A stretch of DNA of 64,000 bases from a virus: positions 1 through 64,000 of the IMG/VR virus record IMGVR_UViG_3300042544_003680. One strand, given 5' to 3'. Made by a program: the position numbers and the translations under genes. Under the pieces are notes generated by a model, which made no database searches, was not told where the DNA came from, and saw only the letters and a program-made list of their open reading frames with translations. Position 1 is the first letter of the stretch. Every line of letters starts with the position of its first letter. Below, piece by piece: positions 36,179 to 60,018 of the stretch.

Positions 36179-36260
36179 TGCTGGGTGTCTGAAGTTGGTC
36201 ATCAGGGAAGGCTCATAACCTTCTGCGCAAGCCTCGGAGGTTCGAATCCTCCCCCAGCAA
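36179..36260 (+). tRNA. tRNA with CAT anticodon (Met or Ile2)
   Basis: Acceptor TGCTGGG/CCCAGCA, anticodon stem GAAGG/CCTTC with loop CTCATAA, T-arm GGAGG-TTCGAAT-CCTCC. The variable region (12 nt) is longer than usual. CCA is not encoded. The CAT anticodon could be Met or, if modified by the phage TilS, an AUA-reading isoleucine tRNA. Confidence 0.8.
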
Positions 36261-36268
36261 CATAATTT

Positions 36269-40442: not shown

Positions 40443-40513
40443 CTAGGCGTAGCTTAATGGGAGAGCGGTAGTTTGAATACAGGTTGTGGGGTTAATTCCC
40501 ATCGTCTAGACCA
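40443..40513 (+). tRNA. tRNA-Gln (TTG), copy 1
   Basis: Acceptor CTAGGCG/CGTCTAG, loop GTTTGAA giving TTG, discriminator A and encoded CCA. The anticodon stem has one mismatch. Confidence 0.75.
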
Positions 40514-50059: not shown

Positions 50060-50503
50060 GGGGGTGTTTTGGTTTCGACTTAATGGTTGAAATTAACATA
50101 GCACGTAGTAGTTGATCAGTTGGCTACTTTAAAAGCTGATCAAAACAAATAAAAGCAGAAGACGCAGAAGTCAATGCCCTACTAGCGCAAGCTGAATACA
50201 TTTTCAACAATGCAGACGAATTCGTCGGTGTCGAAGAAATGGAAATGGTTGCCTAAGTTAAACAATAATGGATACTATTAAAATTATTGAGGTCTAAAAA
50301 TAGGTTGTATAAAAGCATTCTAATATACATAGAACAAAAAATGCAGGTAGCTATTAGCTTTTTGTAATAGCGGGTAATGACTCAAAAAAATCGGTTGATA
50401 TGCCAGCAAACCCAAAGTCTCAGAAATTGCGAAATATCTAAGCGTGTAGAATTGTTAAATTAGATTGTTAAACACAGGGGTTCGACTCCCCTCACCTCCA
50501 CCA
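50060..50503 (+). ncRNA. ssrA: tmRNA (transfer-messenger RNA)
   Basis: The tRNA-like domain is formed by GGGGGTG (50060-50066) and CACCTCC (50493-50499) with a G-U at the third pair, the alanine identity signal. It also has the GGTTTCGACT 5' motif, a T-arm with GTTCGACTC and encoded CCA. The best tag frame starts with GCA at 50155 and ends with TAA at 50254-50256: 33 residues, beginning AEDAEVNALLAQ and ending EEMEMVA. At 444 nt it is longer than typical bacterial tmRNA. It rescues stalled ribosomes and tags products. Confidence 0.92.
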
Positions 50504-56294: not shown

Positions 56295-56699
56295 ATGACA
56301 AGCCTAAATCATAACCATAGAGGTTTAGTTCTGTTGCCTGAAATTTGTCCAGAAGAAGAAATTTTTAATTTCTCTTGTGGTTATAATAGATTATACAGTT
56401 TAGAGAATAGTCCTGAAATTATTATTGGAGATTTTGATTGCTGCGGAAATACATTGACTAATTTAGAGGGCGGTCCAAAAATTGTGAAAGGTACTTATAA
56501 TTGTGAGTACAATTCATTAACCTCTTTGAGAGAAGGACCAAAAAATACTCGTTCATTTTGGATTGCATCTAATAAATTGACAAGCATGATTTATAGTCCG
56601 AAAAACAATGAACAATTGATATTTGCTGATCGAAACCATTTACTCACTTTGGATTATACTCATACCAGAGTCTTTTATTCTTATGTCTGGATTTTATGA
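56295..56699 (+). CDS. Leucine-rich-repeat protein, 134 aa (LRR copy 1)
   Basis: Phage/bacterial-type LRR units: 'LTNLEGGPKIVKGTYNCEYN', 'LTSLREGPKNTRSFWIASNK', 'LTSMIYSPK'. Likely a protein-binding solenoid. Overlaps copy 2 by 17 nt. Confidence 0.7.
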   Translation: MTSLNHNHRGLVLLPEICPEEEIFNFSCGYNRLYSLENSPEIIIGDFDCCGNTLTNLEGGPKIVKGTYNCEYNSLTSLREGPKNTRSFWIASNKLTSMIYSPKNNEQLIFADRNHLLTLDYTHTRVFYSYVWIL

Positions 56700-56979
56700 A
56701 TTTAGTAATAAAGATTTAATATCATTAATTGAAATTTTTCCCAAAAAAATTGAAGGTGATTTATATCTTTGGGAAAATAATCTAACTAGTTTAAAAGGAT
56801 CACCCATTTTCGTCAGTTGTTCTTTTATATGTTCCATAAACAAATTAACTACTTTACTATATTTTCCGAAAATTGTTAAAGAACTCGTACATGTTGATGC
56901 TAATAATTTATTAGGTTTAGATTATATTCCACAACTCAGTTGCGACGATCCATCATTTCCGTTGTTTATAAATTATTAA
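56683..56979 (+). CDS. Leucine-rich-repeat protein, 98 aa (LRR copy 2)
   Basis: 'SNKDLISLIEIFPKKIEGDL', 'NLTSLKGSP', 'KLTTLLYFPK', 'NNLLGLDYIP'. Clear paralogue of the next gene. The ATG at 56683 is preferred over an upstream one. Confidence 0.65.
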   Translation: MSGFYEFSNKDLISLIEIFPKKIEGDLYLWENNLTSLKGSPIFVSCSFICSINKLTTLLYFPKIVKELVHVDANNLLGLDYIPQLSCDDPSFPLFINY

Positions 56980-56981
56980 TC

Positions 56982-57258
56982 ATGACGACATACACTGCCT
57001 TAAATAGCAAAGGATTAATTTCATTAGTTGGAAATCTTCCAAAAGAAATTGAAAGCGATTTATATTGTGCCCATAACAAACTGGTTAATTTAAAAGGATC
57101 ACCAAAAATTATTAGAGGATGGTTTGTATGTTCTAGAAATAATTTAACAAGTTTTTTATATTCTTCGAAAATTATAACACTTTATTTTTGTATTGAAAAA
57201 ATAATCTGCTTAGTTTAGATTATGCAACTAATGGTCGTATATATCATGACTAAACCTT
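56982..57258 (+). pseudogene. Leucine-rich-repeat gene with frameshift (LRR copy 3)
   Basis: In frame it reads 'NSKGLISLVGNLPKEIESDL' ... 'NLTSFLYSSKIITLYFCIEK' and stops at 57218. A -1 shift at the A-run 57196-57201 restores the paralogous ending 'NNLLSLDYATNGRIYHD' and a stop at about 57258. Either decay or a slippage site. Confidence 0.55.
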
Positions 57259-57438: not shown

Positions 57439-57466
57439 TTGACATATCAATTAAATGTGTTAAACT
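57439..57466 (+). promoter_or_regulatory. Sigma70-like promoter for tRNA-Ile
   Basis: TTGACA (57439-57444), 16 bp ending TGTGT, TAAACT (57461-57466); tRNA starts 16 nt later. Confidence 0.65.
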
Positions 57467-57482
57467 AAAATAGTCTGAATAT

Positions 57483-57558
57483 GGTTCTGTAGCTCACTCG
57501 GTAGAGCGTTTCCTTGATAAGGAAGGGGTAGCAGGTTCAAATCCTGCCAGAACCACCA
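57483..57558 (+). tRNA. tRNA-Ile (GAT)
   Basis: Acceptor GGTTCTG/CAGAACC, anticodon stem TTCCT/AGGAA with loop TGATA region giving GAT, T-arm GCAGG-TTCAAAT-CCTGC, encoded CCA. Confidence 0.9.
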
Positions 57559-57563
57559 ATTTT

Positions 57564-57656
57564 ATTTCTGTAGTTTAATTGAAAGTACAACTTTCATTGG
57601 TAAAACATTTTTTCTAGAGCGCGAATTTGCTGGTTCGAATCCAGCCGGAAATACCA
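57564..57656 (+). tRNA. Aberrant tRNA with D-loop hairpin insertion
   Basis: Acceptor ATTTCTG/CGGAAAT, T-arm GCTGG-TTCGAAT-CCAGC and encoded CCA are intact. The D-loop contains an extra GAAAGT-ACA-ACTTTC hairpin. The anticodon arm is not regular: best stem is ATTT/GAAT around a 12-nt loop. Anticodon unassigned. Confidence 0.5.
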
Positions 57657-57745: not shown

Positions 57746-58240
57746 ATGAAAAACATGATTACATCTATCGTAGTTGCTCTTGCAGCATTCGTCGCTCCTG
57801 TAAATGCAGGCACTCCAACTGTTGTCCCTCCAACCCCGGTTGAGGATACTAGTTTCGGAGTTACTGCAAAGGCTTTCGCAAGTGTTGTTCTTGACAATAG
57901 TGAAGAAGCCGTTGGCGGTGGAGTATCGCTTGAAGTTCCTGTTGTGGGAAATCTGAAGGCGGAACTCGTTGGTTCAGTTCTTGAAGATGAAGTTTATAGC
58001 CTTGGTGGCAATCTTCTTTATTATGTTCCTGTTTATAAGAATGTTTCCGTTTATGCACTTGCAGGTGGTGCATACGATTTTGAAACGGACCAGTGGGGTG
58101 TAAAAACAGGTGGTGGTGTGAGTCTTGCACTATCTCAAACTGTTAATGTATTTGCAGATGCTGCATATGTGTTTACCGTGGAAGATAGCGAATCTGATGG
58201 TGTGGTCAGTATTCGTGCAGGAGTCGGATTCAAGTTCTGA
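57746..58240 (+). CDS. Secreted outer-membrane beta-barrel-like protein, 164 aa
   Basis: A clear signal peptide (about 1-21: basic KN, hydrophobic ITSIVVALAAFVAPV, NA-G cleavage) precedes alternating-strand segments ('GGGVSLEVPVVGNLKAELVG', 'LGGNLLYYVPVYKNVSVYAL') and the C-terminal residue is Phe (VGFKF), as in outer-membrane barrels. Similar to Ail/Lom-like 8-stranded proteins in size. It could alter the host surface and block superinfection. Codon use is less AT-biased than neighbours, suggesting acquisition from a host-like source. Confidence 0.75.
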   Translation: MKNMITSIVVALAAFVAPVNAGTPTVVPPTPVEDTSFGVTAKAFASVVLDNSEEAVGGGVSLEVPVVGNLKAELVGSVLEDEVYSLGGNLLYYVPVYKNVSVYALAGGAYDFETDQWGVKTGGGVSLALSQTVNVFADAAYVFTVEDSESDGVVSIRAGVGFKF

Positions 58241-58283
58241 TAAGTAATAAAATATAAGAGTAGTAAAATACTCTTATATTTCT

Positions 58284-58372
58284 GGGAGGATTTCCTTACG
58301 GTGGACTGTAAATCCATTGCCTCAATTTGTAAGGTGGTCCGGCAGCAAGTTCGATTCTTGATTCTCCCACCA
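58284..58372 (+). tRNA. tRNA-Tyr (GTA)
   Basis: Acceptor GGGAGGA/TTCTCCC, anticodon stem TGGAC/.TCCA with GTA, long variable arm, T-arm with TTCGATT, encoded CCA. Confidence 0.9.
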
Positions 58373-58375
58373 TTT

Positions 58376-58449
58376 GTCTTGATAGTTTAATGGTAAAACC
58401 CAGATTTTACATGTCTGTGTCATAGGTTCGATTCCTATTCGGGATACCA
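58376..58449 (+). tRNA. tRNA-Val (TAC)
   Basis: Acceptor GTCTTGA/TCGGGAT with wobble pairs, anticodon stem CAGAT/GTCTG with loop TTTACAT, T-arm ATAGG-TTCGATT-CCTAT, encoded CCA. Confidence 0.85.
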
Positions 58450-58452
58450 TTT

Positions 58453-58527
58453 CGGTCTTTAGTATAATGGATAGTACGCAACGCTACGAACGTTGAGATG
58501 GGAATTCGATTTTCTCAAGACCGACCA
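58453..58527 (+). tRNA. tRNA-Arg (ACG)
   Basis: Acceptor CGGTCTT/AAGACCG, anticodon stem CAACG/CGTTG with loop CTACGAA, T-loop TTCGATT, encoded CCA. Confidence 0.9.
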
Positions 58528-58529
58528 TT

Positions 58530-58614
58530 GGGTATATGGCGTAATTGGTAGCCGCACCAGACTTAGAATCTGGCGGATTTATCCGTGTAGGTTCAAATCC
58601 TACTATACCCACCA
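58530..58614 (+). tRNA. tRNA-Leu (TAG)
   Basis: Acceptor GGGTATA/TATACCC, anticodon stem CCAGA/TCTGG with loop CTTAGAA, long variable arm, T-arm GTAGG-TTCAAAT-CCTAC, encoded CCA. Confidence 0.9.
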
Positions 58615-58627
58615 ATTTTTACTAAAA

Positions 58628-58846
58628 ATGAAAAAGGATCTAATAACTGTAACAGGTAGTGTTACAAAAATTCTACCAAATGCAATGTATCGTGTTTTAT
58701 TGAAAAACACTGAAAAAGAAATCTTGTGTTATTTATGTGGGAAAATGAGCAAACGATTTGTTAAACTAGAATTAGCAGACAATGTTCAAATTGAAATGAG
58801 TCCAATTGATTTGGAAAAAGGACGAATAATGAAACGGTTGACCTAA
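58628..58846 (+). CDS. infA: Translation initiation factor IF-1 homologue
   Basis: The 72-aa protein matches bacterial IF-1 in length and order: 'VTGSVTKILPNAMYRVLLKN', 'ILCYLCGKMSKRFVKL', 'VQIEMSPIDLEKGRIMKRLT'. IF-1 is an OB-fold protein binding the 30S A site. Deviations are two Cys and an Asn/Leu-rich loop. A phage copy could favour leaderless phage mRNAs, which would suit the promoter-at-ATG arrangement here; that link is inference. Confidence 0.88.
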   Translation: MKKDLITVTGSVTKILPNAMYRVLLKNTEKEILCYLCGKMSKRFVKLELADNVQIEMSPIDLEKGRIMKRLT

Positions 58847-58876: not shown

Positions 58877-58904
58877 TTGACAAAACCCTAAAATCACTTA
58901 TATT
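58877..58904 (+). promoter_or_regulatory. Sigma70-like promoter
   Basis: TTGACA (58877-58882), 16 bp, TATATT (58899-58904), then 9 nt to the ATG at 58914. Confidence 0.65.
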
Positions 58905-58913
58905 ATCACTCTT

Positions 58914-59297
58914 ATGTACAGCATGACTATTAAATCTACCACAAATTCAACTATGATGAACTCTAAATCTAAACAAACTAAAACTCTTCCTAAGCTCAGT
59001 GCAGGATTCAAGAAACGCTGGGTGGATGCACTTCGTAGTGGGAATTATATCCGTCACCATGGAGGAAAACTTTATTGCTCCCACACAGATTCATATTCTC
59101 CGATTGGAGTAGCATTCAAAACTTCTGGTGTTCCCGCCTATATGCTGGAAGATGAATATTACCTCAATGATACTTGGAACTTTGTTCCAAAGGAATTGTG
59201 TGGTCAATCTCCAATTATTGAAAAGATTAACCACCTTAATAACCATAAAAAAATGTCATTCAATTGGATTGCAAGTTATATTGAACGATACCTCTAA
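58914..59297 (+). CDS. Unknown protein, 127 aa
   Basis: Three in-frame ATGs near the start; the promoter favours the first. Contains 'KRWVDALRSGNYIRHHGGKL', a pattern seen in small conserved proteins that may bind nucleic acid. Strong terminator follows. Confidence 0.55.
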   Translation: MYSMTIKSTTNSTMMNSKSKQTKTLPKLSAGFKKRWVDALRSGNYIRHHGGKLYCSHTDSYSPIGVAFKTSGVPAYMLEDEYYLNDTWNFVPKELCGQSPIIEKINHLNNHKKMSFNWIASYIERYL

Positions 59298-59311: not shown

Positions 59312-59349
59312 AAAAAAGCCCGCCATGGAAACATGGCGGGCTTTTTTTG
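59312..59349 (+). terminator. Strong intrinsic terminator
   Basis: GCCCGCCATG (59318-59327) and CATGGCGGGC (59332-59341), A-tract before and T7 after. Confidence 0.92.
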
Positions 59350-59377
59350 TTGACATTTTTCAGGAATCTTGTAGCAT
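59350..59377 (+). promoter_or_regulatory. Sigma70-like promoter for tilS
   Basis: TTGACA (59350-59355), 16 bp ending CTTG, TAGCAT (59372-59377), 5 nt to the ATG at 59383. Confidence 0.55.
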
Positions 59378-59382
59378 GTTTT

Positions 59383-60018
59383 ATGAGATTCATGAGCAAT
59401 GTTTTGAAGAAAGTTTATCCAAAAGCAGTTGTTGCACTTAGTAGCGGTGCAGACAGCATTGCAATTCTTCATTTTCTAAAAACGAAATATCCTAAATTAG
59501 ATTTGTCAGCAATTCATTATAATCACAATCTTCGTAGTCAAAATTTTGACATGCAAAAGAATGCTGAAATTTTTTGCAGTGATTATAATATTCCGCTGAC
59601 TGTAAACGTGCGAGAAGCGTCTGAGAAGGAGATTTCATATAGTGAGGCAGAACTACGCACCCTCCGGTATCAGTCGTTCAGGGGGCAAGGAAACGTCATT
59701 ACAGGGCATCACTTGGATGATGCCGTAGAAAGTTACTTGATGAACTGCTTTAACGGAACACCGGAATATCTACCAATTCCTAATGAAACGGAATATAAAC
59801 TTTTGGGTTTTTGTGTTTTTCGTCCTTTTTTAATTTCAACAAAAGAACAAATTTTAAAATATATTTCAAATCATAATTTAGAAAAGTATGTAATTGAAGA
59901 TGAAACAAATGTTGAATTAAAATACCGAAGAAATTGGATTCGTCATAAAATCATTCCAGAAGTTAAACAATTTTATAATCTACAAACAATTGTAAAAAAG
60001 AAATATTTGAAAAAGTAA
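59383..60018 (+). CDS. tilS: TilS-like tRNA(Ile)-lysidine synthetase (PP-loop ATPase)
   Basis: From the ATG at 59383 (211 aa) the PP-loop 'VVALSSGADSIAIL' (SSGADS at 20-25), 'LSAIHYNHNLRSQ' and 'VITGHHLDDAVES' match TilS in order, with 'RRNWIRHKIIPEV' at the end. Bacterial TilS is longer, so this is a core-only form. It converts CAT anticodons to lysidine-AT to read AUA, which fits two complete CAT tRNAs in the window. An alternative ATG at 59392 is possible. Confidence 0.78.
   Translation: MRFMSNVLKKVYPKAVVALSSGADSIAILHFLKTKYPKLDLSAIHYNHNLRSQNFDMQKNAEIFCSDYNIPLTVNVREASEKEISYSEAELRTLRYQSFRGQGNVITGHHLDDAVESYLMNCFNGTPEYLPIPNETEYKLLGFCVFRPFLISTKEQILKYISNHNLEKYVIEDETNVELKYRRNWIRHKIIPEVKQFYNLQTIVKKKYLKK

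Follow-up and report, generated by a model that had tools for sequence, protein, structure and literature searches.

The window analysed here (64,000 nucleotides) opens the IMG/VR virus record IMGVR_UViG_3300042544_003680, which is 105,925 bp long and encodes a T4-type tail tube, helicases (one of them Dda-like), and an SbcD-like nuclease. At positions 58628-58846 on its plus strand lies a full-length open reading frame for initiation factor IF-1 (infA), with an ATG start and 72 codons for a protein of 72 amino acids. The features that define its surroundings, together with the tmRNA gene further upstream, are as follows.

About 50060-50503, plus strand: tmRNA gene (Rfam, 90 bits; missed by ARAGORN), with the next ORF 2 nt after its CCA end
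57483-57656, plus strand: tRNA-Ile (GAU) and tRNA-Glu (UUC), the upstream part of the tRNA cluster, behind a promoter-like site at 57439 (ARAGORN/Rfam)
57746-58240, plus strand: gene for a secreted beta-barrel-like protein inside the cluster (weak Pfam match below the cut-off)
About 58280-58372, plus strand: tRNA-Tyr (GUA) of the same cluster, recognized by eye with no ARAGORN call
58376-58527, plus strand: tRNA-Val (UAC) and tRNA-Arg (ACG) of the same cluster (ARAGORN/Rfam)
58530-58614, plus strand: tRNA-Leu (UAG), directly upstream of the IF-1 gene (ARAGORN/Rfam)
58615-58627, plus strand: A/T-rich leader of 13 nt from the CCA end of tRNA-Leu to the IF-1 start, with no Shine-Dalgarno sequence (read from the sequence)
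58877-58906, plus strand: sigma-70-like promoter 7-9 nt upstream of the next gene's ATG at 58914 (promoter scan)
59312-59347, strand left open: terminator-like hairpin (16 pairs) separating orf58914 from tilS; the scan assigned it to the minus strand, but a T tract also follows the plus-strand copy
59347-60018, plus strand: gene for a TilS N-domain (tRNA-Ile lysidine synthetase), the second gene after IF-1 (profile match)

The neighbours of the IF-1 gene are tRNAs, TilS, and the tail tube, and genes for S13 and L36 are absent nearby; the setting is therefore viral and not that of a ribosomal operon. The original prediction had described a phage with a tmRNA and many tRNAs, and both descriptions were borne out: besides the tmRNA there are at least 23 tRNAs, 22 called by ARAGORN and one by Rfam (40443-40510), apart from the tRNA-Tyr seen by eye. 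A PTH2-type peptidyl-tRNA hydrolase is encoded at positions 73693-74208 of the record. Neither IF-2, IF-3, nor SmpB was found in the 105,925-bp record or in a 135.9-kb sister record. The beta-barrel-like secreted protein within the cluster hints at a Gram-negative host.

Several other features of this genome deserve mention in their own right. The TilS protein is short, consisting of the N-domain alone, and its PP-loop reads SSGADS where the usual motif is SGGxDS; a tRNA-Ile with a UAU anticodon is encoded by the phage as well. A tRNA with a CAU anticodon (36179-36261, plus strand) is preceded by a strong promoter-like site (36145), with a further acceptor-stem change in sister phages. It combines initiator-like traits (a weak U1-A72 pair and two G-C pairs next to the loop) with an elongator-like position 11-24, and its CCA is not encoded. 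An RNA-ligase gene is seemingly split by a GIY-YIG/NUMOD1 homing endonuclease (L010:15086-17307, record 99086-101307), and no Rfam intron was found between the ligase parts in that interval. A family of numerous small repeat-containing paralogues is encoded in tandem, on either strand, at window positions 56295-57218 and L010:8573-18664; its members carry a motif like LPxxPxxIxGxFxCxxNxLTSLxxxPK and match leucine-rich repeats weakly.

The identification of the 72-residue product as a full-length IF-1 homologue, already proposed from the sequence, was confirmed. It matches the TIGR00008 infA equivalog at 74.3 bits (cut-off 61.15) over profile positions 1-68 of 69, the Pfam family PF01176 (eIF-1a/IF-1) at 57.5 bits, and solved IF-1 chains in the PDB with E values down to 2e-15. 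An AlphaFold model built on a 40-row alignment (pLDDT 89.9) has five strands and, in the loop joining strands 3 and 4, a short helix at residues 38-42, as in the IF-1 OB fold. The top PDB matches of this model are all IF-1 proteins, and it superimposes on E. coli IF1 bound to the 30S subunit (9fco_I) with TM scores of 0.92 and 0.95 at 0.9 Å. In PHROGs the protein matches phrog_30201, which is annotated as of unknown function and is probably the phage IF-1 family. A second infA match in the record (88452-88598, 17 bits) lies inside a YopX-family protein and was dismissed as chance.

The gene is also probably under selection. The start methionine is common to relatives in three phage lineages. 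Between the window and its sister phage L004 the IF-1 gene differs at four bases, all in third codon positions and all silent, so that the proteins are identical, whereas the neighbouring TilS is 95% identical between sister phages. Because all four differences are silent, purifying selection is the simplest reading, though the changes are few. When the tRNA-Leu at 58530-58614 is compared with its counterparts in L004 and L007, one arm is strongly different, and the adjoining IF-1 gene is only silently changed. No close relative turned up when bacterial genomes were scanned for exact peptides from this IF-1. Judged from its sequence, the ORF is a genuine IF-1, probably under selection and adapted to the phage, that is predicted to bind the 30S subunit.

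What sets this protein apart became evident in a residue comparison with 68 other viral and 71 bacterial IF-1s, a set that left out the clade members L211 and L215. Position 41 is Ser in the window protein, Arg in 98% of the bacterial rows, and Arg or Lys in practically all viral rows; position 50 is Ala in place of an otherwise invariant Gly, and position 60 is Ile in place of an otherwise invariant Tyr. In structural work, R41 and R46 of IF-1 lie against the flipped bases A1492/A1493, and K39 lies against the 530 loop (PMC10913371), while the C-terminal Arg is needed for 30S binding (PMC4611024). Within the basic contact set that we checked (K39, R41, R46, R64, R66, and the C-terminal Arg, R69 in E. 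coli), Ser takes the place of R41, and K39, K46, K64, R66, and R70 are present or conservatively changed. A literature search for studies of an IF1 R40D mutant found none. The window protein also has a one-residue insertion at position 29 and a Cys34 followed by Tyr35, both of which it shares with a large share of viral IF-1s. The insertion and Cys34 are rare in bacteria (p ~1e-18 or lower for viral versus bacterial rows, with counts rounded from percentages and kinship ignored).

The branch to which this IF-1 belongs was found through the tail-tube gene and a dedicated scan. Its other members are L211/L212 (66% identity to the window protein), L213/L214 (65%), and L215 (54%); L215 scores 72.6 bits against TIGR00008, and L213, at 60.5 bits, lies just under the cut-off. 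Together with the window they form one clade of three lineages (support 100/99) in which Ser41 is fixed and Tyr60 has been lost, to Ile or Thr, in all three lineages while the positions around them vary; Ala50 is the window's own. All three lineages keep the gene near the tail-tube gene. In two of the three, IF-1 starts 7-13 nt downstream of a tRNA-Leu, the gap being 13 nt in the window and 7 nt in L215, where the tRNA-Leu is a different one; L211-L214 have no tRNAs near IF-1 and still keep it.

A first tree could not place the window protein, and its long branch shortened once L211 and L215 were added. The clade then stood beside the IF-1s of Kiritimatiellae and Akkermansia (support 99/84), with a branch still long and a placement that is uncertain. 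Since the tree puts the clade beside bacterial rows, the window protein's sharing of the position-29 insertion and Cys34 with other viral IF-1s may represent convergence or unresolved kinship. The Kiritimatiellae/Verrucomicrobiota proteins resemble the window protein in the KxLPxxMYRV stretch and reach 56% identity, but all 35 IF-1s sampled, nearly all of them from that phylum, have Arg41 and Gly50. This sequence-based placement hints at a Kiritimatiellae/Verrucomicrobiota host. Relative to bacterial IF-1 in general, the window protein is like infA in its full-length match, its OB fold, and the retained K39/K46/K64/R66/R70. It differs in lacking Arg41, Gly50, and Tyr60, in having the position-29 insertion and Cys34, and in being encoded by a phage gene that follows a tRNA gene, with L36 and S13 not near.

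The original prediction had also assumed that the phage messages are near-leaderless, and the promoter layout agrees with this. Of the record's 163 ORFs that begin with ATG, 2.5% have a Shine-Dalgarno-like word at the right distance, as against 8.6% at a control position. TAnnnT peaks 5 nt upstream of the ATG, and 17 of the 163 genes have a -35/-10 pair whose end lies 3-12 nt upstream of the start, compared with 1.7 in shuffled upstream regions (maximum 5 in 200 shuffles). From this geometry, transcription of such genes would be expected to start at the ATG or a few bases from it. The promoter at 58877-58906 is so close to the ATG at 58914 that a near-leaderless message is implied, and in the tilS region a promoter-like site at 59350 ends 5 nt before an ATG. 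One motif (TTGACA, about 12 bases, GTG, TAnnnT) recurs upstream of tRNA clusters as well as 5-9 nt ahead of start codons, with sites that include 36145, 43669, 48190, and 57439, and it looks, from its sequence, like one phage or host promoter class.

A second arrangement may lead to the same outcome. An ATG-started ORF of at least 50 codons begins within 20 nt after 8 of the 25 tRNA/tmRNA genes, where 9% would be expected (binomial p 0.001); the gaps are 2 nt for the tmRNA, 3 for tRNA-Pro, 6 for Phe, 7 for the CAU tRNA, 13 for Leu, 16 for Ser, and 19 each for Ala and Asn. Since these ORFs start 2-19 nt past tRNA or tmRNA 3' ends, RNA processing would yield near-leaderless messages. IF-1, 13 nt after tRNA-Leu, is one of the eight, and its own message is probably short-leadered through tRNA processing. 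In mitochondria, the punctuation of messages by tRNAs is a known processing arrangement. The phage layout is similar in where its ORFs begin, but here the processing is deduced from position, and other phage genes use near-leaderless promoters of their own.

IF-1 as such is already known from phages. Huge phages have been reported to encode IF1 and IF3, for which a part in redirecting host translation was proposed (Al-Shayeb et al. 2020, PMC7162821), so the idea of an initiation bias is not new; the Ser41 variant was not found described in the literature searched. Known phages with IF-1 include the Lak phages and Phosso, and our pattern scan of IMG/VR gave at least 568 confirmed IF-1 relatives. 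None of the 80 loci fetched from the matches listed had L36 or S13 genes beside IF-1. Acinetobacter MD-2021a, Staphylococcus Kay, Efs 1-1-1, and some faecal scaffolds, in which bacterial genes or the L36/S13 operon adjoin, are likely bacterial DNA and were left out. The IF-1s of huge phages, Lak phages, Phosso, and the IMG/VR relatives are, like that of the window, virus-borne, and huge phages as a group carry tRNAs and tmRNAs. In contrast to the window protein, however, phage IF-1s outside the clade practically all have Arg or Lys at position 41, are about 39-56% identical to it, and come, where sampled, from loci without near-leaderless enrichment.

This last point bears directly on function. 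Across 64 distinct viral IF-1 loci with 1047 genes, one locus being from the window's clade, near-leaderless promoters were not enriched (28, against 51 at the control position), and most of these loci use Shine-Dalgarno sites. Because most IF-1 phages are thus Shine-Dalgarno users without such enrichment, leaderless messages do not explain IF-1 carriage in general. Within the Ser41 clade, near-leaderless promoters precede 7 of 29, 5 of 19, 3 of 28, and 2 of 11 genes, with none at the control position, a difference from about 60 other IF-1 phage loci that gives a Fisher p of ~1e-8 with kinship ignored. With one clade behind it, the association counts as one event in phylogenetic terms. It could also reflect the host's own habits; the leaderless pattern was not found in a small sample of Kiritimatiellae/Verrucomicrobiota.

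The proposal that the phage factor biases initiation toward phage messages is therefore plausible but correlative. Leaderless translation in vitro is stimulated by IF1 and IF2 and inhibited by excess IF3 (review, PMC9031893), and among IF-1 phages near-leaderless promoters are enriched only in the branch with the altered IF-1; against this, the evidence is a correlation within that branch. The other role that the original prediction suggested, replacement of an inactivated host IF-1, is hypothetical. We give roughly even credence to the reading that the protein is a functional IF-1 that would act on the host 30S subunit and be adapted to Shine-Dalgarno-less, leader-poor phage messages. IF-1 would be the last product of the tRNA-cluster transcript, and 3' maturation of tRNA-Leu would release its message with a 13-nt leader. 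The protein would then occupy, as host IF-1 does, the A site of the host 30S subunit next to IF2 and IF3, and would shift initiation toward Shine-Dalgarno-less, near-leaderless phage messages. Part of this shift would come from an altered contact with the decoding bases A1492/A1493, given Ser in place of Arg41 and the loss of Tyr60. A stronger form, in which the IF-1 of the Ser41 branch has specialised in adjusting the host decoding centre to leaderless initiation and has co-evolved with the leader-poor layout of tRNA/tmRNA ends and start-codon-hugging promoters, is possible and on balance unlikely.

The main rival, to which we allow a substantial minority chance, is that the phage simply supplies IF-1 to top up the pool after host message decay or shut-off, with no message preference, and that Ser41, like the other substitutions, reflects tolerated drift. 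Hundreds of viral contigs carry IF-1, most of those sampled being Shine-Dalgarno users, and this phage also provides tRNAs, a tmRNA, TilS, and PTH2 as a general translation-support set. Drift does not readily account, however, for Ser41 and the loss of Tyr60 being held over 54-66% identity while their surroundings vary, nor for a departure from the Arg41 found in 98% of the bacterial IF-1s compared.

Alternatively, the protein may be a dominant-negative decoy that fills the 30S A site, fails without Arg41 to set A1492/A1493, and so damps Shine-Dalgarno-led host initiation, from which less factor-dependent near-leaderless phage messages would gain. The anchoring residues are kept and the A1492/A1493 contact (PMC10913371) is lost, as a decoy would have it, but the helix or its immediate flank retains the basic residues K42, R43, and K46, which could make that contact instead, and we consider this explanation improbable. 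Less probable still is a role as a CspA-like RNA chaperone or antiterminator for long tRNA-cluster transcripts in place of an initiation factor. The OB fold, common to IF-1 and cold-shock proteins, and the position of the gene at the end of a tRNA cluster would both suit such a role, but L211-L214 keep IF-1 without tRNAs nearby and most ribosome-contact residues are conserved. A passenger gene under no selection, which the long branch and the changes at invariant sites might suggest, is disfavoured to the point of being barely credible, given that the sister differences are silent throughout and that three diverged lineages have retained the gene near that for the tail tube.

That phages take over translation initiation has been proposed but, for the most part, not put to the test, and the Ser41 branch offers a clean one: a protein of 72 amino acids that has an evident bacterial counterpart and one conspicuous swap, Ser for Arg41, together with phage genes with atypical predicted leaders. 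If the swap alters message choice, it would show a virus re-tuning the ribosome by means of a very small protein and would help to settle the contribution of IF-1 to leaderless initiation.
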